Origin: Olivibacter jilunii
GTDB lineage: Bacteria; Bacteroidota; Bacteroidia; Sphingobacteriales; Sphingobacteriaceae
DNA: 64,000 bases
Direction: 5' to 3'
Assembly (NCBI RefSeq): GCF_900607235.1
Contig: NZ_LR027849.1
Location: 1,116,001-1,180,000 of the forward strand
Under the pieces are notes generated by a model. That model made no database searches. It was not told the origin of the DNA and saw nothing but the letters and a program-made list of their open reading frames with translations. Each line of letters begins with the position of its first letter. Positions within the stretch are counted from its first letter, which is position 1. Positions 30,356 through 64,000 of the stretch are shown piece by piece. The translations under genes were made by a program, and so were the position numbers.

Positions 30356-31687
30356 ATGCCGGATATTAACGTATATAGGAAAGAACGACCGCTTCTTTTT
30401 TTAGAACGAACGCTGGTTGGAGATGGAACTGAACCATTTAATGGCGTATTCGCTATTAGGTTGAAAGGTAAAATAGAACATGAATCTTTGGCCGCAGCCT
30501 TAGCCAAATTGCAAGCTAAATACCTTCAGCTTCAAATGGCAATCGCAGAGATTACATCACCAAAACCCTATTTTTTCATCCCTGACACCATTAGTCCTAT
30601 TCCATTGACTGTAAAAGAGTGGCAACATGCCAATCAATGGCAGGAGGAAGCGTTGGCGGGACTTAGACTTAAATTTGACGTCGTGAAAGGGCCTATGTTT
30701 CATGTTAGCTGTTTGTCGAACCATGTAACTTCAGATCTTATTCTGTCTTTCCATCATTGCATATGCGATGGCGGAGGAGGCGTACTTTTAATACGTGAAT
30801 TGCTGACTTTTCTCGATGGCAAAGAATCAAATATTGACAAGCAAAACCGATTGCTGCGAATCGATGATATCATCCCTATAGAAGTTCGTAAAAGTAAGAT
30901 CAATCAAGTAAAAACCTCCTGTTTGTCCGGTCTTCTGAAAACCGCTTTATCTATATCGGCTATCTTTACTTCTACCAAGAACAGTGGCACCTTAACCAGA
31001 AGCCGGGATTATTTGCTCCATTCAAAATTAGATCGTGAAAGCACCTCAATCTGGGTTTCCATATGTAAAAAACACGGCGTTACGGTAAATACTGCAATTG
31101 GCTTGCTCCTGCTTAAAGCTTATGAAAAAGTGGCTGGACCAGAGTCAAAAAACAAAATTTCCTGTCCCGTAGATATCAGGAAGTTTGCTAAACAAATAAG
31201 AGAAAATCAGCTCTTCTCTTTCGGGATGGTACTGACATTAACCAATAAAAAGGCGAACCATAAATCATTCTGGCCTGAAGCACAAATACTTCAGACCGTG
31301 GTGGATAAACAAATAAAGGCATTAAAACCTTACGAGTTTCTAATGACCTTCGAAAAATTACATAGCGCTCTGCCCCGCATGATAAAAATGCTGACTTACG
31401 GAAAGGTTGGAAATGACCTTATGTTTTCAAATATTGGAAGAATACCATTACAAAATGAATATCAAAATTTCTCGTTGGAAACAGTGTTTAGCCCTATGGT
31501 AATTGGTCCTTTTGCTAATCCTTCTACCATTATCTGCTCAACCTTTAATGATGAATTGGACTTTTCCTTCGTATCAAATGAAGGCTTTTTACCTCAAGAA
31601 AAAGCAAAAAGCATTATTGAATTTGTACGAAATGAGATGATTTTATTAATAACCTCAGCAAAGAAAAACCATGATAACACAACGTAG
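30356..31687 (+). CDS. Condensation-fold acyltransferase (PapA/AATase-like), copy 1
   Basis: A 443-residue stand-alone protein of the condensation-domain/chloramphenicol-acetyltransferase fold. The HHxxxDG catalytic motif is complete (FHHCICDGGGG; H133, H134, D138). There is no carrier domain or signal peptide. Homologues of this type, such as PapA proteins and alcohol acetyltransferases, esterify hydroxyl groups of glycolipids or polyketides with acyl groups. Its place after two glycosyltransferases suggests acylation of a sugar. The end overlaps the next start by 17 bp. Confidence 0.85.
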   Translation: MPDINVYRKERPLLFLERTLVGDGTEPFNGVFAIRLKGKIEHESLAAALAKLQAKYLQLQMAIAEITSPKPYFFIPDTISPIPLTVKEWQHANQWQEEALAGLRLKFDVVKGPMFHVSCLSNHVTSDLILSFHHCICDGGGGVLLIRELLTFLDGKESNIDKQNRLLRIDDIIPIEVRKSKINQVKTSCLSGLLKTALSISAIFTSTKNSGTLTRSRDYLLHSKLDRESTSIWVSICKKHGVTVNTAIGLLLLKAYEKVAGPESKNKISCPVDIRKFAKQIRENQLFSFGMVLTLTNKKANHKSFWPEAQILQTVVDKQIKALKPYEFLMTFEKLHSALPRMIKMLTYGKVGNDLMFSNIGRIPLQNEYQNFSLETVFSPMVIGPFANPSTIICSTFNDELDFSFVSNEGFLPQEKAKSIIEFVRNEMILLITSAKKNHDNTT

Positions 31688-32969
31688 ATTATCTGTTGGA
31701 GAGCGGATCATGTATGTGGCCGAAACAGAAGCCATCAATTGCATTTTTCCATTTAGCTTAAACGGTTTGTTCAATCAGGACCAAATCCAAGCGGCACTCA
31801 ATAAACTTCAACAAAAGCATCCACTTTTACGTGCCGTCATTAAACAGGTAAATGGGTATCCATCGTTTATTTTACCGGAAAATGCACCGGTTATTCCGAT
31901 CACGATATATGATCGGTTCAATGAAACTCAATGGTTAAATTTAATTAAGAAAAGCTGGCAAGACTATTTCAATGTAAGTCAAGGCCCACTTGCTAAATTA
32001 ATATGGATACGCGGCAATCCGACGTCGGATTTTATACTTATTTGTCCACACTGCATAGCGGATGGTGTTAGCATTACGGCCGTTTTACGAGAGTTCCTTC
32101 TTTTGCTGGATGACGTTAGCAAGGATATCGGTGAATCACAAGCCTTGGTTGGAAATGATTTGGTGTCGCATAAATTATCCACTATCAGAAGAGTCCAACT
32201 AAATTTGAAAGCTTTGATAGGAAAGTGCGCTGCCCATCTATTTTTACCAAAGCAGCTGGATAAGAGCAAAACAATTGACTTGAATAACACCTATATGGTG
32301 CGCCACCGCTTTTCATCAGTTGATACCCGAAAGCTCCTTACTTGTTGTAAAAAGAACCAGGTTTCTTTATATACATTAATGTCGGCGGTATTTTTTGATG
32401 TTGGAGCGCACGCTTTTCCCAAACCAAAAGGGAAATTAATATGCCCTGTAGACATCAGAAAATATATAACTAGTTTAAAAGAGGACCAGCTTTTTGCTTT
32501 TGCGCCAATTGTTGACCTTAAAAGTAGCAAAAATACATCCGTTTGGGAGCATGCTAAAGATCTAAAGCAACAGTTACAAGTCGGTTTAACCAAAATCAAT
32601 GCTAATGAAGTTGCCTACATAAATGCACATTTTCAATCCATCGTTCTCAAACTATTAAATCATTTACGAGTAAACGAAGGCTCACATGATTTTACCTTCT
32701 CTAACATGGGCAATCTAGCGATCCCCTCACATTTTGACAAGTTCACGGTTGAACAAATCTACAGTCCGACTGTAGCATTCCCATGGAAAAACCCGAACAC
32801 GATGGTAATGAGCACATATAACAACGTTTTAGATATAACATTTACTTCAAATGACGCAGTGTTACCCCAAAAGGATGCGAATCAATTTTTAGAACGGGCA
32901 ATACAAAAACTCAGCAGTCTAATAGAAGAAGAGACGATCCCTACACCAATTAATACGGTTAATTCATGA
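31671..32969 (+). CDS. Condensation-fold acyltransferase (PapA/AATase-like), copy 2
   Basis: A 432-residue paralogue of the preceding gene. The active-site motif is PHCIADG: the first His of HHxxxDG is Pro126, but the catalytic second His (H127), Asp131 and Gly132 are kept, so activity is plausible. It keeps the downstream CPVDIRKY and SNMGN/SPT-type segments also seen in copy 1 (CPVDIRKF, SNIGR). Having two acyltransferases and two glycosyltransferases suggests a product carrying two sugars and two acyl groups. That stoichiometry is inference only. Confidence 0.85.
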   Translation: MITQRRLSVGERIMYVAETEAINCIFPFSLNGLFNQDQIQAALNKLQQKHPLLRAVIKQVNGYPSFILPENAPVIPITIYDRFNETQWLNLIKKSWQDYFNVSQGPLAKLIWIRGNPTSDFILICPHCIADGVSITAVLREFLLLLDDVSKDIGESQALVGNDLVSHKLSTIRRVQLNLKALIGKCAAHLFLPKQLDKSKTIDLNNTYMVRHRFSSVDTRKLLTCCKKNQVSLYTLMSAVFFDVGAHAFPKPKGKLICPVDIRKYITSLKEDQLFAFAPIVDLKSSKNTSVWEHAKDLKQQLQVGLTKINANEVAYINAHFQSIVLKLLNHLRVNEGSHDFTFSNMGNLAIPSHFDKFTVEQIYSPTVAFPWKNPNTMVMSTYNNVLDITFTSNDAVLPQKDANQFLERAIQKLSSLIEEETIPTPINTVNS

Positions 32970-33499
32970 CGACGCATCCAGCAAAAAAAATAAGTGAATA
33001 TAAAGCAATCCGAATATTCATTCGCAAAAAGCTTATTTGGTATATGTTACCTAATTTAGTATTCAACGGTTTCATTCCTTATTATAGTTTTGAGAATCCT
33101 GCTTCTGTTGCACTTTTTAAAGGAGAGTTCTGCTTCGCTCGATTTATATTACCCATGGCTTTATTTATTCCGTTGGCGATTACCGTTGATTTTCTGAAAA
33201 AGGCGACTGAATTTATAGTAGCTACTCCCTTGGGCCTGGAAGGAAAATTAGATAGCTTAAACACCTCTTTGTTTTTACGATTAGGACTTTACAATGGTTT
33301 AACGTCATTAGCAATTACCTTTATTGGATTACTGTTTATCCACTATATCGTCCCTCCAAAGTATACCTTTGACGGTGCGCTACTGGCTTGTTTTAATGCA
33401 GTTTTTGCTTGTCTGATAGCCGTTTACTACACTTTTTGGAGTACCCATAAACTGAATTCGCTAATACAAAAATCCGATACGGAAATAAAAGGTCAATAG
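32966..33499 (+). CDS. Integral membrane protein ending the glycolipid operon
   Basis: A 177-residue protein with about four membrane segments (starting IRKKLIWYMLPNLVFNGFIP; then FILPMALFIPLAITVDF, ITFIGLLFIHYIV and ACFNAVFACLIAVYY). It overlaps the second acyltransferase by 4 bp, so it belongs to the operon. It may support or export the glycolipid product. I do not recognise the family. Confidence 0.78.
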   Translation: MTTHPAKKISEYKAIRIFIRKKLIWYMLPNLVFNGFIPYYSFENPASVALFKGEFCFARFILPMALFIPLAITVDFLKKATEFIVATPLGLEGKLDSLNTSLFLRLGLYNGLTSLAITFIGLLFIHYIVPPKYTFDGALLACFNAVFACLIAVYYTFWSTHKLNSLIQKSDTEIKGQ

Positions 33500-39187: not shown

Positions 39188-39189
39188 GT

Positions 39190-45905: not shown

Positions 45906-45918
45906 AACACCCTTCTTA

Positions 45919-47066: not shown

Positions 47067-47115
47067 TAGTATATGAATATCATTGAATGGCTACTAAAGA
47101 GAAAAGAAACAATTC

Positions 47116-48411: not shown

Positions 48412-48483
48412 ACATTGCGCCAGTTGCCATCATGCTAATAAGGCCTTTACAGATGGGCTGGTAAAAGCAAGGGGAATTGAAGT

Positions 48484-48588: not shown

Positions 48589-48598
48589 ACGTGGTTAG

Positions 48599-49942: not shown

Positions 49943-50944
49943 TTATTCTACGTTGACAACTGATTTGCTATTGCTTGGGGTAGCCTTTGTTTTCCCTCTG
50001 TTATCACGTGCCATTCTCGAATAAAGTGACAATTTTCTATCAAAAATAAACCTTAATAATAAACGCGTATAAGATCTGTGATGGCCCAAGGAGTCATAGT
50101 AAGGACCTGCAATTTTCTTAATTTTTGGCAAATTGTTCCATGGAATTGATGGAAAGTCATGGTGTTCATTATGATAGCCGACATTTAAATTGACAACATT
50201 TAATACCCCATAGTAGCTTTTTGTTTCCTGATCTTCATCATGGGTTAAAAAATGCTCTTGAATCCACCGAGCACCAAGTGGATGCAACCCTACCGAGAAA
50301 AAAAAGCTGGCGACTAAATAAACCACTGCTTTCCACTGCCAGAAATAAAAAATCAAACCCATAAAGATGAACTGTACGAGATAATTCAACGCTACCCATT
50401 TATCAAACATCTTAATCTCTTTGCTCATCCGTCCCAAGCGCGATGCTTGAACAATAGGATATAAAAGTAACCATAGTGCTTTTCCCAGCGTAGAGTTGTT
50501 AACCAGCTTTGCCTCCCATTCACTGGGCATATCAGCATCCAATTCCTCGATGCCCTGAAAAGCATGGTGTTTCAAGTGATACTTCTGAAAGGATACTGAG
50601 CTTGGGAATACGAGGGGTAAATTTGCAAAAATGCCTGAAAGTGTGTTAAGCACTCTATTTTTGAAGATCAAATTGTGTGAACATTCATGAATACAAATAA
50701 ATAAAGTATGACATGCAAAAGCACCAATTAAATAAGCACATGGGAAGATAAACCACCACGATTCATCATACAAAATCCATGACATGGCTATTTGTATACC
50801 TACACATAGGACTATCACTAAAAAGGTATACGGATTTCTACCTATTAAATGTCGAATTTCGGGATGACTGGATATGATTTCTTTGGTTCTAAGTTTATGC
50901 GGTTCACAATTTTCCGACCAGCTAAAGCTCTTTTTCTTACTCAT
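49943..50944 (-). CDS. Membrane fatty-acid desaturase, sphingolipid delta-4-desaturase-like
   Basis: A 333-residue integral membrane di-iron desaturase with histidine boxes H86-ECS-H90, H123-LK-H126-H127 and H258-NE-H261-H262. The last, NVGYHNEHHDFPSIP, and the nearby SYYGVLN, HPLGARWIQEHF and SLYSRMAR segments closely follow eukaryotic dihydroceramide desaturase (DES1), in which the box is NVGYHNEHHDFP and the end is SPYSRMKR. The N-terminal HPEIRHLI also has a counterpart there (YPEIKSLM). The family match to a membrane desaturase is certain; a sphingolipid substrate is inference, supported by Sphingobacteriaceae making sphingolipids. An alternative is a fatty-acyl desaturase for the nearby PKS product. 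Confidence 0.85.
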   Translation of the reverse strand: MSKKKSFSWSENCEPHKLRTKEIISSHPEIRHLIGRNPYTFLVIVLCVGIQIAMSWILYDESWWFIFPCAYLIGAFACHTLFICIHECSHNLIFKNRVLNTLSGIFANLPLVFPSSVSFQKYHLKHHAFQGIEELDADMPSEWEAKLVNNSTLGKALWLLLYPIVQASRLGRMSKEIKMFDKWVALNYLVQFIFMGLIFYFWQWKAVVYLVASFFFSVGLHPLGARWIQEHFLTHDEDQETKSYYGVLNVVNLNVGYHNEHHDFPSIPWNNLPKIKKIAGPYYDSLGHHRSYTRLLLRFIFDRKLSLYSRMARDNRGKTKATPSNSKSVVNVE

Positions 50945-51072: not shown

Positions 51073-52539
51073 TCATTTCTTATTCAATAAATTAGCCTTT
51101 TCCTCAGCACTTATATCTCCTTTTTTATCCCTATTTCTATTGCGAAGCATATAGATAAGACTCGATTTTTGCGGCAGTTTTAGCGCAGGCAAAACAGCTA
51201 GCAGGATAATAACGGCCGTTATTAGAAAACTATTTTGCAAGGCGAAATGTTCCGCTACCTGATCGGGGTATTGGTTTTCCAAATAACGATCATATATAAA
51301 TGTATGTATAACTGCACTTACGGCTATTCCAATGGAGCCTCCTACCTGTAGGAACAAACTGTTCAGCGCCGTTGCAGTTTGCGTCTGATTTGGTTTAACA
51401 GCATTGAGAAGTGCTGTAGAAACCGGTGCTACCAGTAGGCTCATGCCGAGTCCTCTTATCGCCATCGTAAACAAAATAAACCATACGGAAACACCGATAT
51501 CAATTCTAGCCAGCATAAAGAAAGAAATAGATACAATTAAAATACCGCTAATTGATATATTTCGGATCATTCCTTTATCGGCTAATCTACCCGATAACGG
51601 CCTGCTTACCAGCATAATTAATGCGTTTGGCAGCATTAACAACCCGGATTCAATTTCGGTATAACCTAACAGTCCCTGAAGCAAAAAAGGTAAAAAGAAC
51701 ATGCCGCCATAAAGAGCCAAAGATCGAATAATCGTTATCGTAGCAGCAACATTAAATTGCCTTATTCTAAAAACATTCAGGTCGAGCAGTGATTGGGGCT
51801 TCTTTGCTGACTGTACAAAGAAGTACAGCATCAAAAGTGTAATCAGGAGGCCAACGAAAAATGAAACAGATAAAAAGCCTTGCTTACTGATCGTCGATAT
51901 CGTGTATTGTAAAATGATAATAAAGATTGAAAAGAATATAAATCCCCTTACATCAAACCTACTTTCCTTATCAACTTGCCGCTTTAAAAAGCTTAAGTAA
52001 CGTATTGAAAAAAAGATCGTTAAAGCCCCGATCGGTATGTTAATATAAAAAATAGATTCCCAGCCCAAGTAGTGCGTGAGTACTCCACCAAGTGTTGGGC
52101 CCAAGGCGGGGCCCATCACATTTCCCATTCCCCACCAACCAATTGCCGTACCGCGTTCTTCTTTCGGAAAGGTCTCGCTTAAAATTGCCAGCGAAGTGGG
52201 GGATAGCGATCCGCCGCCTATAGCCTGTATTATCCTGGAAATAACTAGCATGTCCAAACTTACCGAGAGACTACACAATAAGGAACCAAGGGTAAAAATG
52301 ACAATACTTCCAAGAAACAAATAATAGTAACCAAAGCGTTTCTTTAGCCAGTTCGTCAAGGGTATAAAAAGCGAGAACGAAATCATATAGGCAGTGATTA
52401 CCCATTCAATTTGGTTAAGATCAACCCCGAAATCATTTCGCATTACCGGCAAAGAAACGTTTACAATGCTACTATCAATTGCGGCCATGGACGTAGCCAT
52501 CATTAATGTAGCGAGTACAAAGGACCTGTTTATTAACAT
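51073..52539 (-). CDS. DHA2-type (EmrB/QacA-like) MFS exporter
   Basis: A 488-residue transporter with about fourteen membrane segments from the ATG at 52539; the TTG at 52548 adds three residues. DHA2 motifs include DSSIVNVSLPVM in helix 1, SRIIQAIGGGSLSPTSLAIL in the first half and a GWWGMGNVMGPALGPTLGGVL motif. The cytoplasmic tail is basic. Such pumps export lipophilic compounds or drugs. Its place between a desaturase and a cyclopropane synthase makes a lipid or product exporter plausible. Confidence 0.9.
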   Translation of the reverse strand: MLINRSFVLATLMMATSMAAIDSSIVNVSLPVMRNDFGVDLNQIEWVITAYMISFSLFIPLTNWLKKRFGYYYLFLGSIVIFTLGSLLCSLSVSLDMLVISRIIQAIGGGSLSPTSLAILSETFPKEERGTAIGWWGMGNVMGPALGPTLGGVLTHYLGWESIFYINIPIGALTIFFSIRYLSFLKRQVDKESRFDVRGFIFFSIFIIILQYTISTISKQGFLSVSFFVGLLITLLMLYFFVQSAKKPQSLLDLNVFRIRQFNVAATITIIRSLALYGGMFFLPFLLQGLLGYTEIESGLLMLPNALIMLVSRPLSGRLADKGMIRNISISGILIVSISFFMLARIDIGVSVWFILFTMAIRGLGMSLLVAPVSTALLNAVKPNQTQTATALNSLFLQVGGSIGIAVSAVIHTFIYDRYLENQYPDQVAEHFALQNSFLITAVIILLAVLPALKLPQKSSLIYMLRNRNRDKKGDISAEEKANLLNKK

Positions 52540-52719
52540 GTTTTGCAAAGATACTCAAATCGTATATAAACTCTAGTTGATCAACTTCATATCTCATGCC
52601 GGTTTATATTGAGATTAATCGGCGCTTTATTCTCGAGAACTTCACCCGATAATAAACATCTTACCCCTTTAACTGTTAAAAACATAGTTGCTTAACTGAA
52701 CTAATTTAACTTGAACGCT

Positions 52720-53829
52720 ATGTTAAGAGATTTACTGAACGATTTTTTAGCACCATGTGATATACAGATTAACGGTTCCAGACCCCACGACTTACAGGTT
52801 GTTGACAGTCGATTCTATAAAGAAGTTCTAAAACGAGGTTCGCTCGGTTTAGGTGAGTCATTTATGCAAGGCTGGTGGGTTTCAAACGATATTGAGGAAC
52901 TCTTATATCGTTTAATCCAAGCTAATTTAAGTGACAAATTTAAAAGAAAACCAACCCTATTCTGGTACTATCTGAAATCAAGGCTATTTAATTTACAGAA
53001 TAAGAAAAGATCGATAGATGTAGCCTTAAAGCATTATAACATTGGCAACGAACTTTATCAATATATGCTCGGAAAAACGATGATGTATTCTTGTGCCTAT
53101 TGGAAAGATGCCAAGACTCTAGAGGAGGCCCAAGAAAGAAAACTAGATCTTATTTGTAAAAAACTGGATTTATCCGCCGGTCAAACTGTTTTGGATATAG
53201 GTTGCGGTTGGGGCGGTTTTGCAAAGTTTGCAAGTGAAAATTATGGTGTTACCGTAACAGGAATCTCCATTGCCGCGGAGCAGATTGAGTTTGCCAAGAC
53301 ATGGTGCCATAAGTTGCCTGTTGAATTTAGATTGCAGGATTATCGCGACTTGGATGAAAAATTTGACCGTATCGTTTCCATTGGAATGTTCGAGCATGTC
53401 GGATACAAAAACTATCGCATCTTTATGCAAACAGTGCATAATTGTTTAAAATCCAACGGTCTCTTTCTGCTTCATTGTATTGGTGGAAACGAGGCTTCAA
53501 CAGCAACTGATCCGTGGATACATAAGTATATATTTCCAAACGGACTAATACCTTCACCAAGGCAATTAACCGCTGCCATGGAACCTTATTTCACGTTGGA
53601 AGATTGGCATAACTTTGGTCCTGATTACGAGTTGACCCTGAATGCCTGGCAAGAAAATTTTAAAAACTATTGGCATTGCATAAAAAACAGTTATGACGAT
53701 CTCTTTTACAGGATGTGGCTGTATTATTTAAATGTAAGTGCAGCTTCGTTTAAAGCCCGTCATAATAATGTTTGGCAATTGGTCTTATCAAAAAAAGGGA
53801 ATATAGCCCGCTATTTCTCTGTACGTTAA
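52720..53829 (+). CDS. cfa: Cyclopropane-fatty-acyl-phospholipid synthase
   Basis: The ATG at 52720 yields 369 residues, close to E. coli Cfa (382). The N-terminal lipid-binding part runs to about residue 105 (GSLGLGESFMQGWW), and the SAM-binding part has HYNIGNELYQYMLGKTMMYSCAYW, VLDIGCGWGGFAKFA and SIGMFEHVGYKNY. It methylenates cis double bonds in membrane lipids at the cytoplasmic face using SAM. It is convergent with the PKS operon, across the inverted repeat at 53839-53938. Confidence 0.95.
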   Translation: MLRDLLNDFLAPCDIQINGSRPHDLQVVDSRFYKEVLKRGSLGLGESFMQGWWVSNDIEELLYRLIQANLSDKFKRKPTLFWYYLKSRLFNLQNKKRSIDVALKHYNIGNELYQYMLGKTMMYSCAYWKDAKTLEEAQERKLDLICKKLDLSAGQTVLDIGCGWGGFAKFASENYGVTVTGISIAAEQIEFAKTWCHKLPVEFRLQDYRDLDEKFDRIVSIGMFEHVGYKNYRIFMQTVHNCLKSNGLFLLHCIGGNEASTATDPWIHKYIFPNGLIPSPRQLTAAMEPYFTLEDWHNFGPDYELTLNAWQENFKNYWHCIKNSYDDLFYRMWLYYLNVSAASFKARHNNVWQLVLSKKGNIARYFSVR

Positions 53830-53951: not shown

Positions 53952-54254
53952 TTAAACTTGAGAAGAAAGTATATAATTTACGATGTCCTTTATTTTTAGA
54001 TCAATCAATTGATCCAAATCCAAGCCAGAGAGCCAACCGGTAAAATCGATACCCTCTCCAAAATGTGCTTTTACTTTTTCCGAAAAAGAGACGATCTCAA
54101 TACTATCCATCTCTAAATCTTTTGTAAAAGAACTTTCCATCGAGATGTCCATTTCTTCAATAAATTCTTCACCGATAATATCTGTTATAAACTGCTTCAA
54201 TAAGCTAAAGATTTCCTCACTTTTTAGTTTGTTGTAATTTTCTACAGTGTCCAT
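53952..54254 (-). CDS. Acyl carrier protein of the PKS operon
   Basis: A 100-residue free acyl carrier protein. The phosphopantetheine site is Ser51 in LEMDSIEIV, which differs from the PfaA-type DSIKR of the synthase ACPs. Acidic residues surround it, typical of ACPs. Its start overlaps the end of the second synthase by 13 bp, so translation is probably coupled. It may receive the finished chain or load substrates onto the synthases. Confidence 0.9.
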   Translation of the reverse strand: MDTVENYNKLKSEEIFSLLKQFITDIIGEEFIEEMDISMESSFTKDLEMDSIEIVSFSEKVKAHFGEGIDFTGWLSGLDLDQLIDLKIKDIVNYILSSQV

Positions 54255-57200
54255 CCTATGATATAATTGTTGTACTTAATTGTTTTAACTTTTATACTTT
54301 CAATAATCAGCTCATCCCCCTCAATTGCACCTACTTGATAAGTCTTTGGATTGCCAGCCAAGCCCTTCCCAATTGACTTCCCATAAGCCTCTTTTGCTAC
54401 CCAAAAGCGCGTAATCCACTCGTCCCGATCTTTTTTTCCTTTTAACAAAAGTCGTTCGTTGGCCGTCAGGGCGATTTCTTCAAAACCCACCCCTCTCGAC
54501 TTGATTTCTTCCATATCGATTCCAACAGGTTTACCGAGTCGTGCAATGGCTACGGCTTCATCATTTTTATGTGCTATTGAGATCTGAACATCTGCAGCTA
54601 AAGGCCCTTGTATAACGGGCTGTCCGGTAGCAAGTTTAGCAATACTAAATTCTATGGGGTAATAGGCAGTGTTCGTTTCTCTTAAGAGTAATGATCTTAT
54701 CGCATCTCTTAGGGCAACACGACTAACTAACCATTTCTTTCTCTTGTTAAGCGCTAAGCCGTTTAGGAAGTTACGATCCGCTAGTGGCAAGTAACGTTTT
54801 GCAATAAAATCCCACGAAATAACTTTTTGGTAAGCCTTGTGAAATTTGAATACCTCCGGATATATCTCCTCCGACAATAGGTTGAATTTAGGAGACATAG
54901 ACACTTGCCATAGGCGTTCGTCAAACTCCAACCGTATATTCTGCCATCCATTAATCACCGCCCAGACCTTTCCGTCTCTTTTAAGCAGAAAGTTGGCAGT
55001 AGCCGTTTCATCATTGATGTCCGTTAGCGAACACGTACATTCGAATTCGCCTGTCTGATCAGCGAAATCCTGATAAAATATAATTTCATCGATTTTGATA
55101 GGAAATGCAACTTTATTCACCTTTAAGGTTAATTGCAACCATAAGCCGAATAATTGCCCGGCATTATCTAGCAGTGAGCCTTTTCCTCCACTGCCAACGA
55201 TTATTCCCCTTATTCCCTTATCACCAATAGAATTGACAGCTTTTATACCTTGATAAGCTGGCCCATGGAACATGTGTCGATCATAAATGGTTACGGGATC
55301 AATTTGTATATCCAATAAATTACCCACCGTTAACAGTTGCAAAGAAGAGCTCTCCAATTTTTCAGCTAATACAACTTCCGCCTCGGCATACTTATCAATA
55401 CGGACGCTCCATATAGAGTCATTTTTCCTCTCACCAACTACTTTTTCCCTGAACGGCTTACTCACATTCATCCATTGGAAAACCCGGATCTGTTGTATTC
55501 TGCTCAACTTTCGTTGTCTTTCGTGATTAAAAGCAGCTTCACCTAGCAATTCCAAAATCATTGTCATCGGAATTACCGGATCCATATCTTCCGGACAATG
55601 CCAACCTGGCTTTTGTTTTACCAGTGCATGGTCTATAAGATAGGGATGCTGATCTAGCGAAATATTGAACGGTGTTTCAAAATGCCCGGGCACATGAGAT
55701 TCGGTTCCAAACCTATTAAAACACTGTGGTAGTGGATTCGAAAACTCCTTGTTTTCAATCAGTTCGATCAGATCCGAATACATACCCATCGCTTCCTCCA
55801 TATTGTCCATCACAGCCATCGCAAGTGGATGTTTTACCGTTCGTTGTGTTCTCACATAACCGGTATCTTTAGGTGGCTTTGTAAACGATGAATGGATCGG
55901 AAAATCCCACGTGCTTACAAGCGGTGAACCAAGATTTAACTTAACAGATGCATTCTTCTGTGATTTTGTTTGAAGACCTAAAAAATCTAAGTCGACTTCT
56001 TTACCGTCGACATACAATGAGGCAAGTATTCTTCGCAACTGAGATAATCCATCTCGATAGGGAGAAGTAGTAGATAAAGCATTATATGGATTTCCTTTAA
56101 GGGTATCATCAACAAAGCCTGTTATGCCGCCTGCTCCAATCTGGATAAAAACACGCACTTGTTCTTGATGGTATAATTTTTCAATAAGCTCCCTGAATCT
56201 AACCGGCTGTATTAAATGTTCAACATTAAGTTGCCTTATCGCCTCCACTGTATCAGGGTAAGGGGCCAGGTTTGTGGCAGACCAAACTGGAATCTTTACC
56301 CTTAAAAAATCTATTTCTTCGATGCCTTCTAATATTTGAGGCACTCTATCTTTAATAAAAGGACTATGGAAACCGGATTGAAATGGTAAAACCTGATGAA
56401 AAATTTGGTGTACCTTCAATTCCGTAATGAGCTGCTCAATTGCTTCGTACGTACCGCAGAGTATTACTTGCTGAGGGCAATTGTCATTTGCTAAATAGAG
56501 GGACGGAATTTTTTCTGAAATCCCCTTAATACGTTCATAACTACAACCAACTGCGATAAACCTGGCATAGCTTACTTCAAACAATTGAGGATCAAGCTTT
56601 GTTATTAAATGTTTGACAGAACTCGTTGTAACCAAACCTGCTGACATGGCCGCCAGCCACTCGCCCATGCTATGTCCTGCATTGATATCCGGTACAACCC
56701 CGAGTTTTTTCATCGCTAGATCAATCGTTCTACTATTTTGAAGTTGATTCAAGGCAGAAACAAAAACTTTTGTATCATGCATAGAATCTTCAAGTAGAAA
56801 CTCCTGCTCTATTTTAAAGTATTTGGAAACACTTTCGGTTTCGCCCGATGATAAGCCATCTAGACCGGGGAATAGAAAAGCAATTTTCTTCTCTCCGCGT
56901 AGTAGCGGCGCATTTGTATACCATATATCCTGTCTATTACGCCAGGGCTTATTTTTAGTCACGATATTGATCGCCTTTTTAATCCGGTCTACCGTTGGAT
57001 TAAAAACTGCTATGCGAAAATCACCATCGCCTATATCATTGCTGCCACTTTCTAGCGCTAATATTAATTCATCCACACTTTTTCGTGCCAATACTCGCAC
57101 TTCATCCTCTGCTACTCGCTTGGCCTGATGTACCGTATTTTTTACTGTAAAAGCTTCCAATACAACATGCGCATTGATGCCGCCAAAACCGAAGGCATTT

Positions 57201-58525
57201 ACACCGGCCCTTAGCGGTAAACCGCTGCTAGACCAGTTTATCGGTTCATTTACCGGTTCAAATCGAGTTTCGGCCAAAACCTCAATAGGTGAATCGCAGT
57301 GCAAGGTAGGGGGAAGCGTGTCATTATACAGTGCTAGAGCCGTTTTTATTACACCGGCAATGCCAGCCGCGGGCATCGCATGTCCAATCATGGATTTTAC
57401 ACTCCCGATTTTTGCTTTATTCCCTTTGCTAGCCGAACCAAACACCAATTTAAGCGTTTCCAGTTCAGTACGATCGCCAATAACCGTGGCGGTACCATGG
57501 GCCTCTAAGTAACCGATATCGTTAACAGACAAACCAGCTTGTTGCCATGCCTGTTCGATTGCCCTCGCTTGTCCTTTGGTGGAGGGACTCATGACACTCG
57601 TTCCCGAACCATCGCTGCTTATACCGACACCTTTTATGACACAATAAATCCGATCACCGTCTAATAATGCTTTATCGAGCGTTTTCAAGACTACGAAACC
57701 ACAACCTTCACCAATTATTAATCCGTCGGCGTCCTTATCAAACGGCCTACTTTGCTGCCGTTTGGAAAGCGCTCCCAATTGATGGAAAATACTCCAAAAT
57801 GTGGCGTTTTGGCCGACATGAACACCTCCGGCAATGACCATATCCGATCGATCGTTTACTAATTCGTTCACGGCATGGTCTATAGCCAATAACGAACTTG
57901 CGCAGGCAGCGTCAACGGTATAAGCGGCTCCTCCTAGGTTAAAACGATTAGCCACTAATGAAGCAATCAGGTTAGGTATGAGGCCCATCGCAGTATCCGG
58001 AGTGAAGCGCCCTTTTTTCTTCTGGAACTCCTTTTTTATCCGCTTGATCTCCTCCTCTTTTAAATCTGGCATTAAGTGCCGTATAACATTCACCAGCTGC
58101 TCTGCTACATGTACAACTTCGACCGCTCGCGTCGCCCCAGGCCCCACGTAATTGCCTTTTCCTATGATAATAGAAGTTCTATCAAGTTTGTATTTGTTCT
58201 TCCAAACACCGGCATCTTCCAAAGCGCTATGAACTAACTGAAGCGTGAGTAATTGGTCAGGTTCCATCCCTTCTACAGCAAGTGGAAGAATACCGAATGT
58301 AACGGGGTCAAAATGCGCATAATCATCAATAAAGCCACCACGCGAGCAATAGAATCGATCGTAGGATTCATCATCGGGAATAAAATACCGCTCGTTAATT
58401 CTACTTGACGGTATGGGTCCCGTAGCATCAACTTTCTTTAAAATGTTATTCCAATACGAATTGATATCGGGAGCTCCCGGAAATACAGCAGACATCCCGA
58501 TAATTGCAATATCTTTTTTATTCAT
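54242..58525 (-). CDS. Type I synthase subunit KS-AT-DH-PPTase
   Basis: A 1427-residue multifunctional protein. KS spans residues 5 to about 460 with an intact triad (VDAACASS C208, EAHGTAT H343, GHAMPAAG H382). AT spans about 545-830 with GHSMGEW (nucleophile Ser619) and FHSPF (His720). A double-hotdog DH spans about 950-1210 with HPYLIDHALV and Asp1120 (LLDNAGQ). A Sfp-type phosphopantetheinyl transferase spans about 1260-1427 with SIAHK, VGIDMEE and FWVAKEAYGKSIGKG. It starts after the partner synthase with an 11-bp gap and overlaps the ACP gene. The pattern is like PUFA or heterocyst-glycolipid synthases. The product is unknown. Confidence 0.92.
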   Translation of the reverse strand: MNKKDIAIIGMSAVFPGAPDINSYWNNILKKVDATGPIPSSRINERYFIPDDESYDRFYCSRGGFIDDYAHFDPVTFGILPLAVEGMEPDQLLTLQLVHSALEDAGVWKNKYKLDRTSIIIGKGNYVGPGATRAVEVVHVAEQLVNVIRHLMPDLKEEEIKRIKKEFQKKKGRFTPDTAMGLIPNLIASLVANRFNLGGAAYTVDAACASSLLAIDHAVNELVNDRSDMVIAGGVHVGQNATFWSIFHQLGALSKRQQSRPFDKDADGLIIGEGCGFVVLKTLDKALLDGDRIYCVIKGVGISSDGSGTSVMSPSTKGQARAIEQAWQQAGLSVNDIGYLEAHGTATVIGDRTELETLKLVFGSASKGNKAKIGSVKSMIGHAMPAAGIAGVIKTALALYNDTLPPTLHCDSPIEVLAETRFEPVNEPINWSSSGLPLRAGVNAFGFGGINAHVVLEAFTVKNTVHQAKRVAEDEVRVLARKSVDELILALESGSNDIGDGDFRIAVFNPTVDRIKKAINIVTKNKPWRNRQDIWYTNAPLLRGEKKIAFLFPGLDGLSSGETESVSKYFKIEQEFLLEDSMHDTKVFVSALNQLQNSRTIDLAMKKLGVVPDINAGHSMGEWLAAMSAGLVTTSSVKHLITKLDPQLFEVSYARFIAVGCSYERIKGISEKIPSLYLANDNCPQQVILCGTYEAIEQLITELKVHQIFHQVLPFQSGFHSPFIKDRVPQILEGIEEIDFLRVKIPVWSATNLAPYPDTVEAIRQLNVEHLIQPVRFRELIEKLYHQEQVRVFIQIGAGGITGFVDDTLKGNPYNALSTTSPYRDGLSQLRRILASLYVDGKEVDLDFLGLQTKSQKNASVKLNLGSPLVSTWDFPIHSSFTKPPKDTGYVRTQRTVKHPLAMAVMDNMEEAMGMYSDLIELIENKEFSNPLPQCFNRFGTESHVPGHFETPFNISLDQHPYLIDHALVKQKPGWHCPEDMDPVIPMTMILELLGEAAFNHERQRKLSRIQQIRVFQWMNVSKPFREKVVGERKNDSIWSVRIDKYAEAEVVLAEKLESSSLQLLTVGNLLDIQIDPVTIYDRHMFHGPAYQGIKAVNSIGDKGIRGIIVGSGGKGSLLDNAGQLFGLWLQLTLKVNKVAFPIKIDEIIFYQDFADQTGEFECTCSLTDINDETATANFLLKRDGKVWAVINGWQNIRLEFDERLWQVSMSPKFNLLSEEIYPEVFKFHKAYQKVISWDFIAKRYLPLADRNFLNGLALNKRKKWLVSRVALRDAIRSLLLRETNTAYYPIEFSIAKLATGQPVIQGPLAADVQISIAHKNDEAVAIARLGKPVGIDMEEIKSRGVGFEEIALTANERLLLKGKKDRDEWITRFWVAKEAYGKSIGKGLAGNPKTYQVGAIEGDELIIESIKVKTIKYNNYIIGWTL

Positions 58526-58535
58526 TTCTGCGTAA

Positions 58536-61500
58536 CTATGCCATAATTAAAACCCGACTCTCATTTCCATATTTTATTTCATTGGCAAATGTTTCTTTTC
58601 CTCTTTCCAAGGGAATTAGCGATATGCCCCGACGTTCGTATTCTTTCTCGAGACTGGAGGACACCATCCCGGCACCTTTCCATGGTCCCCAATTGATTGC
58701 CATTACTCGACCTTTCATTTTCTTTCGTAACACCTCTGCATAATGATCCAGCACACTGTTTGCCGCTGCATAATCTGTTTGGCCTCTATTTCCATAAACA
58801 GAAGCTATGCTGGAAAAGAACACAATAAATTGCGTATCGTTTCTCAATTGTTCAGCGAGTACGCGTAAGGGGGTCACTTTCGTACTAAAGACCCGTTCGA
58901 AGGAATCAGCCGTTTTATTTTCAAATAACTTATCTTCCAAAATACCTGCTCCATGAATTACGCCATCAATTCTGCCATATTTCTTATAGAGCTCCTGTAT
59001 CAGAAGCACTAGCGCATCTTCATCTCTTACGTCAACAGCATGATAACTCACATTTGCACCTTGTTCCCTAATAGCCTGCATGCTACTTAGGATTTGTTGT
59101 GTTTTATGCAACTGTATTGTCCTTTGTTCAATCTCTGCAGGTGACTTGGAATACCCTTGCTCAATTAGGCTCTTTCTGATTTCCTCTTTGCTTTGCATGA
59201 TAATCTGATTTGAGTCCACGTCACTCGGATATGAAGACCGGCCTACTAGCACATAATTACAAGGATACTCCTTCGCTAAATGTGTAGTTAACGCGGCGGT
59301 AATCCCTTGGGCACCCCCTAAAACAAGAACAACAGCATCCTTATCCATAACAAACGGACTTCTGTTTGCAGTCTGTAAAGGATCGTTCGTTTCTTTAACT
59401 GCATGTCTAAAATTATCTTTGTAATAGATAACTGATGGCTCATCCGTGCAAAGCATTTCATCAATCAATAAGTCAGGAATTTTATCTTCTTTTGTTTCAT
59501 TCATAAAATGAATGGTCCGACATTTTGCCTGATCATATTCTTTATCTAGACTTTTAATAAAACCCGTATATCCCTGATAACTTCGTAGAAATTTGGGATC
59601 TTCATTCTTATCAACATGAGCACCGTGATCAGATAACACATAAACCCACTTAACACGGTTCATATCCAACGATTTTACCATGCGGACGGCATCGATAATA
59701 TTTAATCGGTGATTAGATGCGACCATATCTAAAATCACCAGTCCGTCATAGCTTGCCAGGTCTTTTTCTTGTGGTACAATATCGACAATTGCGCCTCGTT
59801 CTTCCAGCTTCTCTTTAATCAGAAAACCGAGATTCCCATCGCGTGTAATGGCAACTTTTGCACCTTGCAAGGTATTAGGATAGTCCTGTTTTAATAAAGC
59901 ATGAACATCTGTCAATTCAAACTTGATCCGTTTCAATGTATCACTAAGTTCGTTATTTCCAAGTAAGGTGTCAACGAACGGCTTTTCTTTATCTGCAAGG
60001 CTTTTAGATTCACCGTTAGCTAATAGTTTGGCGGCTATCCAATCGATCAAATGATTTAAGGTTTTAAACGCAGATAGCTTTTCCATTTGCTCTTGGTTTT
60101 CCTCATCGCCAGGCATAATAGCCTCTAATTTAACTTTGAGTTCACCGATTATTTCGATTCTTTTGATGGAATCTATACTTAGATCAGCCTCCAAGTCGAG
60201 ATCAAGACCGAGCATTTCCGTTGGGTATCCTGTTTTCTCACTTACAATTCCTAGAATCATATCTTGGATATCACCTTTCTGAAGCGCAGGTTGTTGCCGG
60301 GTTATTTCCGTTGTTAAGGTTTCATTAACATCGTTTATAATGTTTGCGTCAAACCATCCAAGTAAACCATTAAGTGTTTTGATGGAAGCCAATTGTTCCA
60401 CCATTTCATCTTGGCTTTTATTTTTAAACTGAAAGTTACTTAACTGTATACGCAACTCGCCAATAATTTCGAGTCTCTTAATGGAATCAATACTCAAATC
60501 TGCTTCCAGATCCAGATCCATTCCTAGCATATCCTTTGGATAACCTGTTTTTTCGCTTACCACCTCCATCAGAATCGTAGACAAAGGCTTTGTCGTTTTT
60601 GGACCGGATGTTATTAGTTCGTTTTCATTAGCTTTCTTACCTACAGGATCCGGAGATTGTTCTCTCTTTTCAATGAGACTAGGCATTGATACCGGAACCG
60701 TATTAGGATTTGTATGGATATAATTGTTCGTACTAGGCTGTCCTAGATAGGCGAGGAGGACATCCCGTTGTGCTTGAATTAGCATCTTCATACCTGCTAA
60801 ATATTCCAAGGTGAGCTGCTCAGCAGATCCTTGTACCGATAAAGTATCACTTTTTGTGTTGTTTTGCACGGTCAGTTCTTTAAAATTAATGATAGGCTTC
60901 GTTACAGGCAGTGCACTGTAAGCGGGTAGTTTGCCTTGAGCAGGCATCGCCATCTGACCATCCACGAGCCAGATTGAGGAACTTTTCTTGAGTTTCTCCG
61001 GGTTGTCCAGATCTAACCAAGTTGCTTGTCGATCTGCAAATAAAACATCTATCTGTACGGTTTTCCCTGTAGCTATATATTGCGCTAAAGCCACTAATAG
61101 TTGGAAAATACCGTGTTTTCCATTTTCCTCTGTATGTATAACAACCTCTTCCTTGCCTAAAATCGACTTTGTCAAACTTGTTAGCGTCTTACCTGGCCCA
61201 ACCTCAATAAAAATTCGGGCACCATTCGCGTACATTTCTTCTATTTGGTCTGAAAAAAGCACAGGATTGACAATATGAGAAGCCAAACGGTTCTTGATTT
61301 CGGTACTTTCCGTTGGATATAAAGCAGCACTTGTATTTGACCAAACAGGAATGCTAGGCTGTTTAAATGAAAAATCGTTCAACAAATCAGCGTAAAGAGA
61401 TTCCGCCTTTGCAATTAACGGACTATGAAAAGCACAGGCTACTTCCAGTTGCCGGTAGGAAACTTTTTGTTCCTTCAAGACCTGCATAAAGCTTTCCATC

Positions 61501-64000
61501 ACAGCGGATTCGCCTGCTAGAACCCATTGCTGTGGAGAATTATGATTGACGGCGTATATGTTCTTTCTCGAAGACAACAACTGATCGATCATCGCTTTAT
61601 CACCGTTTACGGCTACCATAATCCCCTTGTCGTCACCTGTCGAGGCCAAGATAGCTTCGGCTCTCCCTTTACTTAAAGCAACGAGATCCCCCTCATTGAA
61701 CACCCCTGCAAATGCGAGTGCCGGAAGCTCTCCGTAGCTATGGCCTGCCAGCATATCGGGGATGACGCCAAGATCACTCAAAAGGTTAGCAATCGCTATA
61801 TCTATTATTCCTAAAAGCGGTTGCGCCATACGCGTATCTTTAATGGCTTCCTTTTGCTTCTTTAAACTTTCTTCACTGAAAGCATTGCTAGGAAAAAGTA
61901 TTTTTTCGTATGCCGGGTAACGACTGAGAAGTGATCTCATCCGTGGAAAGTTCACCAATAGCTCTCTAGCCATGTGTATTCGCTGACTTCCTTGACCAGC
62001 AAACAGGAAGGCCGTTTTTCCCTTAACCTCCTTTGTTATGTATGTATCCTTCGCATGCGTACCGGACAATACCAAATCTATCTTGAATTGCAGATCTGCT
62101 ATGGAATCAGCGATTATAGATAATTGTACCGGAGCATTGCTATAGGTAGCAAGAGAGAACGCAATATCACGTAACTTTACCGAGTCGTTCAGATCAATTA
62201 ATCGTTTTGTTTTCTTGAGTAGGAGACTGGCCTCTTCGTAATCATTTCCTCTGAAAACAAAGAGCTCCGCGGGCCATTGCTTCGTAACAGAGAACGGTAT
62301 TTCCTTGTTATCTGCATGATTGGAAATAACGGCATGAAAGTTCGTGCCGCCGAAACCAAAAGCACTAACTCCGGCTACTCGTTGTGGATTGGACCATAAA
62401 CCAGCTTTGTCGGTAAATACAAACGGACTTGTTTTTTCGTTGTAAAAACCATTAGGTTCTTTTAAGTTAATAGTCGGCGGTTTAATTCCGTAATATACAC
62501 TCAACGCACTTTTAATCAGGCCTGCCATACCCGCCGCGCATTTTGTATGCCCAATTTGGGTTTTAACTGAACCAAGATGGCTTTGTTGCGGGATGGCTCC
62601 GCTCTTAACCATTGCCTGCGTTAATGCACTCAATTCAGTGCGATCTCCAACCACCGTGCCGGTACCATGTGCCTCGAAGAGTTCAACAGATGATATGGAT
62701 AAACCCGCCTGCGAATAGGCTCTTTCCAATGCCTTCGTTTGTCCGGCAAGTCGAGGTGCTGTTAACCCAAGACTCTTTCCATCGCTGGAGCCGCCTACAC
62801 CTTTAATTACGGCAAAAATTTGATCACCGTCCTGTTGCGCATCTTCCAATCTTTTCAGCACAACCATTGCCACACCTTCGCCTAAAGCGATGCCATCAGC
62901 CTCCGCATCAAAGGTTGCGCATCGACCTTTTTTCGAAAGAGCATGTGTACTGGCAAACATCAGATAATCATTGATACCATTATGTAAATCCGCCGCTCCG
63001 GCAATCACCATATCAGATTTGTTGAGGATGAGCTCTTGACATGCCAAGTCAATAGCCGCCAGCGAAGAAGCACATGCAGCATCCACTGTATAATTACGGC
63101 CACCAAGGTCTAATCGATTGGTAATTCGACCGGCAATTACATTTGCCAATACCCCCGGAAACGAGTCCTCAGTAAGTTTTGGTAAGGATTCATCAACTTC
63201 CTTCGGTATTTCGCCGAAAAATTGCGAGAAAAGTGCTCTGAAACTGTAATTATTGGCCAAGTCATTGCCACCTTCCGCACCTATGATAACCGATACATTC
63301 TCCTTATTAGCGTCCTTCGCGGCATAACCTGCATGTTCAAGTGCCCGCTTTGCAACAAGCAGACTCAACAGCTGTGTTGGATCAATAGCGGCCAACGACT
63401 GCGGGGGAATTCCAAATTCAAGCGGGTCAAATTCGATCTTCGGTATAAATCCACCCCATTTTGATGGAGATTTGCTGCCGTTGGTATCTAATGGATCATA
63501 ATAAATCTCTTTATTCCATCTTTCATCAGGCACCTCCGTAATACAATTTTTAGCATCTAGTATATTCCGCCAAAAAGCGTCAATATCCTGTGCTCCCGGA
63601 TAGATACATGCCATTCCAATAATAGCTATATCGATCGCATGATTGGTTGTTTCTGTTAAGGTAAAGGTCTCTGCATGTTCAATATGTTTATAATTGTTTT
63701 TGGCGACATCTTCGTGTAAATCAGCTATGGTTCTGATCTTATTGTTTAAAGCGGCTACCTGTCCGATCATGTACATACCCTTTTGATATTGCACATCCTC
63801 GTTCAGATATATCAGATTCTCAGATACCCGTTCGATTCCTTTGCTAGCGATGCGCAAACGCCCCACGTTTAACTGCTCCAATGATTCCCATATCTGCTTT
63901 TTATCGACACCATCCTTTTCAAGTCTCCGCTTTTCTTCTTCGAAGTAGGAGGTAAAAGGCGATTGCAAACATCTGGTTTCATGGCCGGGAGCAGTTTCTA
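58536..64000 (-). CDS. Type I PUFA/PKS-like synthase subunit, (ER?)-KS-AT-ACP-ACP-KR, partial at right edge
   Basis: At least 1810 residues are read from a TTG at 63968, but the frame stays open to the window edge, so the true start is outside. Residues 1-100 (NVGRLRIASKG, GMYMIGQVAALNN) look like the C-terminal tail of a PfaD-like FMN enoyl reductase. KS spans 113-545 (C299, H434, H474), AT 652-975 (GHSYGE Ser744, FHSP His848) and two PfaA-type ACPs follow (DSIKR; Ser1162 and Ser1267). KR runs from about 1345 to the end (GGAQGITAAL, SSIASVYG and QTDYAAAN). It heads a leftward operon with the KS-AT-DH-PPTase protein and the ACP. Confidence 0.92.
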   Translation of the reverse strand, partial: ETAPGHETRCLQSPFTSYFEEEKRRLEKDGVDKKQIWESLEQLNVGRLRIASKGIERVSENLIYLNEDVQYQKGMYMIGQVAALNNKIRTIADLHEDVAKNNYKHIEHAETFTLTETTNHAIDIAIIGMACIYPGAQDIDAFWRNILDAKNCITEVPDERWNKEIYYDPLDTNGSKSPSKWGGFIPKIEFDPLEFGIPPQSLAAIDPTQLLSLLVAKRALEHAGYAAKDANKENVSVIIGAEGGNDLANNYSFRALFSQFFGEIPKEVDESLPKLTEDSFPGVLANVIAGRITNRLDLGGRNYTVDAACASSLAAIDLACQELILNKSDMVIAGAADLHNGINDYLMFASTHALSKKGRCATFDAEADGIALGEGVAMVVLKRLEDAQQDGDQIFAVIKGVGGSSDGKSLGLTAPRLAGQTKALERAYSQAGLSISSVELFEAHGTGTVVGDRTELSALTQAMVKSGAIPQQSHLGSVKTQIGHTKCAAGMAGLIKSALSVYYGIKPPTINLKEPNGFYNEKTSPFVFTDKAGLWSNPQRVAGVSAFGFGGTNFHAVISNHADNKEIPFSVTKQWPAELFVFRGNDYEEASLLLKKTKRLIDLNDSVKLRDIAFSLATYSNAPVQLSIIADSIADLQFKIDLVLSGTHAKDTYITKEVKGKTAFLFAGQGSQRIHMARELLVNFPRMRSLLSRYPAYEKILFPSNAFSEESLKKQKEAIKDTRMAQPLLGIIDIAIANLLSDLGVIPDMLAGHSYGELPALAFAGVFNEGDLVALSKGRAEAILASTGDDKGIMVAVNGDKAMIDQLLSSRKNIYAVNHNSPQQWVLAGESAVMESFMQVLKEQKVSYRQLEVACAFHSPLIAKAESLYADLLNDFSFKQPSIPVWSNTSAALYPTESTEIKNRLASHIVNPVLFSDQIEEMYANGARIFIEVGPGKTLTSLTKSILGKEEVVIHTEENGKHGIFQLLVALAQYIATGKTVQIDVLFADRQATWLDLDNPEKLKKSSSIWLVDGQMAMPAQGKLPAYSALPVTKPIINFKELTVQNNTKSDTLSVQGSAEQLTLEYLAGMKMLIQAQRDVLLAYLGQPSTNNYIHTNPNTVPVSMPSLIEKREQSPDPVGKKANENELITSGPKTTKPLSTILMEVVSEKTGYPKDMLGMDLDLEADLSIDSIKRLEIIGELRIQLSNFQFKNKSQDEMVEQLASIKTLNGLLGWFDANIINDVNETLTTEITRQQPALQKGDIQDMILGIVSEKTGYPTEMLGLDLDLEADLSIDSIKRIEIIGELKVKLEAIMPGDEENQEQMEKLSAFKTLNHLIDWIAAKLLANGESKSLADKEKPFVDTLLGNNELSDTLKRIKFELTDVHALLKQDYPNTLQGAKVAITRDGNLGFLIKEKLEERGAIVDIVPQEKDLASYDGLVILDMVASNHRLNIIDAVRMVKSLDMNRVKWVYVLSDHGAHVDKNEDPKFLRSYQGYTGFIKSLDKEYDQAKCRTIHFMNETKEDKIPDLLIDEMLCTDEPSVIYYKDNFRHAVKETNDPLQTANRSPFVMDKDAVVLVLGGAQGITAALTTHLAKEYPCNYVLVGRSSYPSDVDSNQIIMQSKEEIRKSLIEQGYSKSPAEIEQRTIQLHKTQQILSSMQAIREQGANVSYHAVDVRDEDALVLLIQELYKKYGRIDGVIHGAGILEDKLFENKTADSFERVFSTKVTPLRVLAEQLRNDTQFIVFFSSIASVYGNRGQTDYAAANSVLDHYAEVLRKKMKGRVMAINWGPWKGAGMVSSSLEKEYERRGISLIPLERGKETFANEIKYGNESRVLIMA

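Follow-up and report, generated by a model that had tools for sequence, protein, structure and literature searches.

A putative secondary lipid synthase of Olivibacter jilunii and a detached block of partner genes that suggests a glycolipid product

We analysed a 64,000-nucleotide stretch of the Olivibacter jilunii genome (contig NZ_LR027849.1, positions 1,116,001 to 1,180,000; hereafter the window), which is part of contig C2 in a 6.7 Mb genome (G000). The window carries three genes, A, B and ACP, for a nearly complete iterative synthase, and a separate block of genes for a hydrolase, two glycosyltransferases (GTs), two PapA-like acyltransferases and a small membrane protein. As this detached block holds sugar- and acyl-attaching enzymes that usually lie beside the synthase in relatives, it suggests a glycolipid product, and such a prediction from partner genes is new for this orphan type of synthase. 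Judging from the sequences, the two blocks together probably make an acylated glycolipid of the cell envelope. The gene content, the intact motifs, the conserved linkage in relatives and the joint absence of both blocks from a close relative, on which this reading is built, were all observed. With these conserved partners, what had been a loosely defined ‘secondary lipid’ becomes, for many Bacteroidota genomes, a glycolipid prediction that can be put to the test. The genes in question are as follows.

58536..63998, (-): gene A, amino acids (aa) 528-2347, with the start codon past the window edge; end of the enoyl reductase (ER), ketosynthase (KS), acyltransferase (AT), two acyl carrier protein (ACP) domains and ketoreductase (KR)
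54242..58525, (-): gene B, 1427 aa; KS, AT, dehydratase (DH) and phosphopantetheinyl transferase (PPTase), the KS being near the PfaC type and the DH of polyketide synthase (PKS) type
53952..54254, (-): free ACP, 100 aa, its start overlapping the end of gene B
27110..27886, (+): HYD, alpha/beta hydrolase (GYSFG), a possible release enzyme and the first gene of the detached block
27933..29132, (+): GTa, UGT/MGT-type glycosyltransferase
29154..30350, (+): GTb, another glycosyltransferase of UGT/MGT type; several relatives have it fused to GTa
30356..31687, (+): PapA1, condensation-fold acyltransferase, with HHxxxDG as HHCICDG
31671..32969, (+): PapA2, condensation-fold acyltransferase, with PHCIADG
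32966..33499, (+): MEM, small membrane protein with three hydrophobic stretches (Kyte-Doolittle) and no Pfam family

A preliminary description of the synthase had treated the three leftward genes as a complete operon and had suggested that its product could be a lipid or a glycolipid. The GT and acyltransferase partner genes support the latter idea. The three genes are not the entire pathway: the usual partners lie at 27110-33499 in the same window, did not figure in that description, and are the best clue to the product.

Domain content of the synthase genes

Domains were called with Pfam and NCBIfam models, and the longer A was read from the genome beyond the window. All three leftward genes were confirmed as open reading frames (ORFs). 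The operon is, however, not complete in the window, as whole A comprises 2347 aa, of which the first 527 extend past the edge to approximately window position 65579. The models identified an NMO/FabK-like ER, KS, AT, ACP and KR in A, bearing out the proposed order KS-AT-ACP-ACP-KR, and the ER, previously given with a question mark, proved to be real: PF03060 (NMO) matched two stretches of whole A, one within aa 1-245 and the other at about aa 291-634. Full-length A was read in 23 genomes (G000 and G004 included; G632, G752 and five loci of a further family not). A profile of aa 1-245 built from 16 of these 23 proteins matched FabK structures (best E 4.7e-12), and 15 of the 16 members matched NMO in this part. 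In the KGNE(A/S/G)xG motif of the N-terminal barrel, just two of the 23 A proteins have a His where xEAGGH has one, whereas FEGRE(C/S)GGH of the second barrel is kept in all 23; on this ground we read A as a degenerate ER barrel followed by an intact ER. In a thraustochytrid synthase, two ER domains are reported to pair as a heterodimer and the xEAGGH His is named as the proposed catalytic residue (PMC13311796); the two barrels of A may form a comparable built-in pair.

Both ACPs carry EADLSIDSIKR in 23 of 23 A proteins, in agreement with the PfaA-type DSIKR motif reported before. The Cys-His-His of KS-A, the GHSYGE and Arg of AT-A, and the DSIKR serines of both ACPs are conserved across the same set. 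The A protein of G745 varies directly after the KS Cys, and the KR stretch has F for one Tyr in G504 and S for the Thr before DYAAAN in G728. The best NCBIfam model for A was TIGR02813 (PfaA), with 976.2 bits against a cut-off of 1010.1. The same model gave 2529.7 bits for the PfaA of Persicobacter and 1156.1 bits for a Type P protein of Beijerinckia; the latter passes, so the cut-off alone cannot separate synthase types. A has two ACPs, in contrast to the four to six of Type A synthases (PMC3098273).

For B, Pfam confirmed KS, AT and PPTase (ACPS) and gave a weak PS-DH match, and PfaA was again the best NCBIfam model (431 bits). The DH proposed for B held in its residues but not in its score: it fell below the Pfam gathering cut-off of 23.7 (17.7 bits in whole B, 22.3 bits for a piece), whereas the Streptomyces homologue passes the model with 39.2 bits, and the His and Asp that we take to be catalytic are each present in 25 of 25 B proteins. 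The Cys and first His of KS-B are both kept in 22 of the 25; both are missing from G728 and G745, and the His alone from G752, all of genus g234. At these loci (L103, L104 and L105) the second KS shows a decay resembling that of a chain length factor (CLF). GHSxGE of AT-B and the PPTase motifs VGID and FWxAKEAYGK occur in all 25 B proteins. AT-B lacks the malonyl-binding Gln (RxAQP) and Arg which are present in AT-A (aligned in four genomes); these two residues are also missing from PfaB, whose substrates are long chains (PMC12895367). The PPTase reads ISIAH and TGQP here; hSh(A/S)H was found in 25 of 25 B proteins, and x(G/D)xP was absent from some relatives. The free ACP was retained as a gene kept beside B in relatives, although it scored under the Pfam cut-off (17.5 against 20.8) and its NCBIfam ACP matches were also below the curated cut-offs. 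With condensation, loading and reduction domains found, the idea of a near-complete iterative synthase unlike PfaA-B-C-D was upheld, and those catalytic motifs of A and B that were checked proved intact.

Pfam scans detected no KS-CLF didomain in B, which has one KS and then the AT. Neither B nor the window part of A gave a match to PF07977 (FabA-type DH) at E 0.01, and a more lenient scan (E 0.1) of pieces spanning A and the DH region of B found none either. The genome has a single PF07977 match, in a 472-aa frame on contig C1, so that a FabA-type DH might act in trans.

The partner genes and their joint absence

Neighbourhoods of the synthase were laid out for 24 genomes, 23 of them outside Olivibacter and one being O. 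domesticus (G004), and for five loci of a further family. The 28 non-Olivibacter neighbourhoods were picked among 63 matching genomes (full-length phylum matches and three family searches, minus the window genome and G004), and A was read full-length for 21 of the 23. In all 23, the synthase genes are followed by HYD and by one or two GTs of UGT-like type, PapA-like acyltransferases are present in 20 (none in G728, G745 and G752), and MEM stands at the operon end in 19. All five neighbourhoods of the further family contain HYD, GTa and PapA-like ORFs, the latter two or three in number, but no counterpart of MEM. The partner proteins belong to the abhydrolase, UDPGT/EryCIII-like and Condensation families of Pfam. 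These counts are uncorrected for genes missed by ORF picking, either hidden by longer frames (on the wrong strand or extended upstream) or lost where a contig ends: no ACP was picked in G752 and L171, nor GTb and PapA1 in L172, while in G335 PapA2 is cut by the contig end with MEM beyond it, and in G556 PapA1 is in two pieces.

In the window genome, the GT and PapA matches span C2:1143933-1148912 (window 27933-32912), and with HYD and MEM added the block occupies 27110-33499; the corresponding matches in G004 lie at C10:1007088-1012036. In both genomes the synthase and the tailoring block face each other on opposite strands. PapA1 and PapA2 exceed the cut-off of Condensation PF00668 (35.3 and 45.4 bits against 30.6). 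PapA2 has P for the first His of HHxxxDG and retains HxxxDG, and its best match among PDB sequences is phthiocerol/phthiodiolone dimycocerosyl transferase (E 4.5e-12). Among relatives longer than 380 aa, to which the motif counts are confined, HHxxxDG is present in 20 of 20 PapA1 proteins, and all 19 PapA2 proteins lack the first His and keep HxxxDG. Mycobacterial lipids pair type I PKSs with PapA-type acyltransferases, and the Olivibacter set resembles them both in this combination and through the PDB match of PapA2. RhlA/RhlB of rhamnolipids, considered as a possible model for the hydrolase and GT, was not borne out; what the searches by family and against the PDB turned up were generic esterases and enzymes of MGT type.

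The synthase is present in two of five Olivibacter genomes, namely those of the window and O. domesticus. G003 is largely collinear with the window and carries neither block. At one locus (L124), its heme-locus genes, heme oxygenase, desaturase and exporter genes (both described below) are directly followed by a topoisomerase IB gene, with no CMAS-ACP-B-A, and at another (L174) the permease gene w33591 adjoins w25126 with no tailoring block. Sequence searches of the five Olivibacter genomes gave no GT or PapA match in G003. G001 and G002 had no match to the synthase part or PapA, and the GT match in G002 was no more than weak and partial. G003 is closer than G004 to the window genome, the identities to the window proteins being 93.0 versus 87.0% for the desaturase, 87.2 versus 78.7% for the exporter, 81.3 versus 66.4% for w33591 and 87.1 versus 67.8% for w35007. 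Because the proteins of G003 are nearer to those of the window, loss of both blocks in G003 would be the simplest reading, next to which separate gains or transfers are possible. The joint absence is consistent with joint loss and with a single pathway, and the split locus together with the double absence in a near relative provides a natural test of which genes belong together.

The splitting of the operon and its patchy occurrence in the genus might instead indicate a remnant or silent cluster without product in this strain. Against such decay, the frames are open, motifs are conserved in A, B, the hydrolase and PapA, and both synthase-bearing genomes keep both halves; we regard a dead cluster as very unlikely. 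A recent insertion by a mobile element was also considered and rejected: only short two-copy repeats and one 19-nucleotide inverted pair were found, none of them framing either block, and the G+C content gave no sign of it. The G+C contents of the blocks are 0.388 and 0.42, compared with 0.382-0.402 around them, the synthase being the most G+C-rich.

Kinship and class of the synthase

The domain order had been called unusual, but the same set occurs in many Bacteroidota. Whole-length relatives of A (55-71% identity) and B (54-68%) are found in other genomes from several families of the phylum, a recurrence beyond chance, and relatives of A on Streptomyces plasmids share 39% identity over 99%. 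Fused pfaDA and pfaBC-PPTase genes are already in print (PMC13291983), and related orphan synthases were catalogued in 2011 by Shulse and Allen (PMC3098273). The set is thus not new in its domain order; it is a new member among catalogued, uncharacterised secondary lipid synthases. In a phylum-wide draw of 395 genomes, A was matched in 10 at 1e-100, four times in full length (the window’s own included) and six times over approximately KS-AT only. The DH-PPTase part of B gave matches in 24 of the 251 genomes from the own family, a count that takes in the window genome and G004, in 35 of 197 in the family of G281 (28 in g46, 7 in g234) and 5 of 200 in that of G319. The 80 nearest relatives gave 20 matches at 0.001, 18 of which lie only in the C-terminal PPTase-like part. 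The Aureispira and Saprospiraceae loci, L030 and L031, were set aside, as they showed only single KS-like ORFs.

In a tree of 43 KS rows rooted at the midpoint, a single clade (100/98) holds KS-A of Bacteroidota and of two Streptomyces plasmids. KS-B groups with the KS of Streptomyces B (100/99), and then, with modest support, the second KS of Persicobacter and Azospirillum (91/87). KS-A shares an open group (89/93) with the rows of Beijerinckia, Methylosinus and Rhodobacteraceae, to which the first KS of Persicobacter and that of Azospirillum also belong. The Persicobacter protein is PfaA by NCBIfam, and its neighbour carries two KS stretches. With several long branches, FabF inside the ingroup and some open forks, the deeper order of the tree is unsure. 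KS-A of G589 and G661 (L094 and L096; genus g16 of the own family) shares a clade with that of G281, G335, G828 and G315, which belong to other families, and the GT pair is fused here as it is there; this shared tree position and fusion suggest that the cluster may have been transferred between families.

These affinities bear on the possibility that the set is a PUFA (polyunsaturated fatty acid) or long-chain fatty acid synthase feeding phospholipids in the manner of PfaA-D, with an unrelated GT block. PfaA is the best NCBIfam model for both large proteins (976 and 431 bits), KS-A falls in the open group with PfaA-type KSs (89/93) and KS-B with PfaC-type ones (91/87, modest support), AT-B lacks Gln and Arg as PfaB does, and the ER is of FabK/PfaD type. 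Unlike PfaA-D, the Olivibacter set has no CLF or FabA-type DH found in A or B, only two ACPs, an extra degenerate ER barrel and a fused PPTase; the PfaA score is below the cut-off, set against 2530 bits in Persicobacter, and GTs follow the synthase in all 23 relatives laid out. A PUFA synthase was rejected as the class for want of the FabA-type DH and CLF, and the phospholipid alternative as a whole seems to us quite unlikely. The heterocyst glycolipid type was likewise rejected: hglC of Type F is KS-CLF-AT and the type has no DH/I (PMC3098273), whereas B is KS-AT-DH-PPTase without CLF.

A-B-ACP, as far as its sequence tells, fits an iterative secondary lipid synthase of the orphan Type N/M of Shulse and Allen, a fit drawn from published descriptions and the PPTase motif. 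Type N is represented by Chitinophaga pinensis and Chryseobacterium gleum, and its product was uncharacterised in 2011 (PMC3098273); affiliation with Bacteroidota, the PPTase hShxH and an orphan product are common to it and the Olivibacter set, in which the tailoring genes are detached. The PPTase motif P1b’ hShxH is shared by Types M, N, O, P, R, S and T, and P1a x(G/D)xP by all types (PMC3098273), so that ISIAH and TGQP agree with Type N but are not specific to it. The plasmids of Streptomyces sp. NBC_01243 and NBC_00984 carry A, B, ACP, an alpha/beta hydrolase, one GT and a methyltransferase in this order, the first five as here, and have no adjoining annotated PapA; one of these clusters shares 36% (B), 33% (GT), 25% (HYD) and 25% (ACP) identity with the window proteins. 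The two clusters are probably Type M.

In Azotobacter, phenolic lipids owe their C22-C26 acyl portion to a Type P synthase, and a Beijerinckia strain is named under this type (PMC3098273). As in Olivibacter, one protein of Beijerinckia indica pBIND02 has two NMO stretches, KS, AT, two ACP stretches and KR, and a second has DH-PPTase; unlike in B, no KS or AT was found in this second protein. Two genes annotated as KS III C-terminal domain lie between them, and a type III PKS belongs to Type P in the paper (PMC3098273). The Olivibacter synthase could similarly pass its acyl chain to a type III PKS, given that A is 38.5% identical to the Beijerinckia protein over 1580 aa, that the DH-PPTase region of B matches its partner (24.6%, E 3e-37) and that the genome has two PF00195 matches over the cut-off of 27 (36.0 and 27.6 bits). 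Both matches, however, cover model positions 99-224 only and lie on other contigs, the model also matches Escherichia coli and other controls, and no type III PKS was found among the scanned window proteins beside the synthase or the tailoring block, for which reason the phenolic lipid class was rejected; we consider this route most improbable. The pfaDA and pfaBC-PPTase genes of Aquimarina sp. TRL1 and Flavobacterium sp. N502540 show the same fusion pattern as A and B, which is likened to that of Renibacterium salmoninarum, and are tied to PKS and nonribosomal peptide synthetase assembly lines (PMC13291983), none of which was seen beside the Olivibacter synthase.

In the open-licence literature searched, no product or glycolipid partner genes were described for the cluster. 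The main text of a survey of Flavobacteriaceae gene clusters contains neither hglE nor glycolipid (PMC10734526). An hglE-KS region of a Sphingobacterium, which may or may not be the same cluster, is reported to have no similar known cluster (PMC11446778).

Proposed pathway and neighbouring genes

For the acylated glycolipid that we favour, the domains of the synthase point to a long chain, reduced or in part hydroxylated, and the partner genes to release, glycosylation and O-acylation; the individual reactions, their sequence and the type of product are all inferred. The PPTase of B would arm the ACPs. AT-A would load malonyl, and KS-A, perhaps with KS-B in later rounds, would extend the chain, which KR-A, DH-B and the FabK/PfaD-type ER of A would reduce fully or partly in each round. 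The outcome may be a long acyl chain, saturated or hydroxylated, that has no methylene-interrupted cis double bonds. AT-B, having no malonyl-binding pair, might shift the long acyl chain, perhaps onto the free ACP, from which the hydrolase would release or transfer it. The two UGT-type enzymes would then attach one or two sugars, the PapA-like enzymes would esterify hydroxyls with acyl chains, and MEM, perhaps with the exporter, would help to move the product. We entertain, with somewhat more doubt than confidence, the wider proposal that Type N synthases lie at the centre of a large and so far undescribed class of envelope glycolipids in Bacteroidota. This is a joint claim, taking in one or two sugars, PapA acylation, analogy to mycobacterial polyketide glycolipids, an A-B-ACP-hydrolase-GT core common with Streptomyces, a degenerate ER barrel partnering a working ER, and a second KS turning CLF-like in one lineage.

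Several observations weigh against the glycolipid pathway. The blocks are 20.4 kb apart here and approximately 13.6 kb (from the ACP) in O. domesticus and lie on opposite strands; their co-expression is therefore not assured. The joint absence is a single case, and the G003 region is divided between two contigs, with their junction near w42686; w26000 and w26561 are missing from G003 as well, and it has an unrelated 408-aa ORF in place of window 21812-25063. Around the permease gene in G001 and G002, only w35007 keeps its place. The three g234 loci have another membrane protein following, no PapA and a KS-B with lost active-site residues, while in Streptomyces a methyltransferase occupies the usual place of PapA. 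The PapA family models scored below their cut-offs (PapA5 on PapA1, 26 against 396; PapA_C on PapA2, 22.4 against 30), as did the MGT model on the GTs (166.0 and 164.5 against 260 bits). Sequence does not reveal the donor and acceptor of the GTs or the substrates of the PapA enzymes. A further PapA-like gene is located off the pathway in both genomes (G000 contig C4, L127:9312-10577; G004 C12, L128:9722-11014).

Three genes lie next to the synthase in the window:

52711..53829, (+): CMAS, cyclopropane-fatty-acyl synthase (550.8 bits, cut-off 400), between the ACP and the exporter
51073..52548, (-): MFS (major facilitator superfamily) exporter, DHA2-type, located downstream of the synthase in the two Olivibacter genomes that have one
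49943..50944, (-): DES, desaturase with a Lipid_DES (sphingolipid Delta4-desaturase) domain, adjoining the exporter and present without the synthase in G003

The Olivibacter synthase might be uncoupled from the tailoring block and work with these neighbours on another lipid, perhaps linked to sphingolipids. The order A-B-ACP-MFS-DES, the local CMAS aside, is common to both synthase-bearing Olivibacter genomes, and DES has the Lipid_DES domain. Nevertheless, MFS and DES adjoin in G003 at a site with no synthase, DES is also found in other genera, CMAS is restricted to the locus of the window genome among the neighbourhoods laid out, and the tailoring frames are open in both genomes, with the PapA and hydrolase motifs intact here; this uncoupling appears unlikely. 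The three were accordingly rejected as core genes, their homologues being found in none of the 23 non-Olivibacter neighbourhoods. Links of the exporter and of CMAS to the glycolipid pathway are unproven, and DES, because G003 has it without the synthase, is probably outside it.

At E 1e-20, a desaturase with Lipid_DES was found in 6 of 50 genomes searched (the own included; three of five in the genus), and DES gave no PDB sequence match at E 0.01. From its sequence, it is possibly a bacterial sphingolipid desaturase. A paper on a PKS and sphingolipids in Pseudomonas is on record (PMC12134224). Between the two blocks, window 37292-49856 is apparently a heme-uptake locus, with an ABC transporter, a TonB-type receptor, lipoproteins and a heme oxygenase, annotated by eye except for the heme oxygenase (Pfam) and in good part retained in G003.

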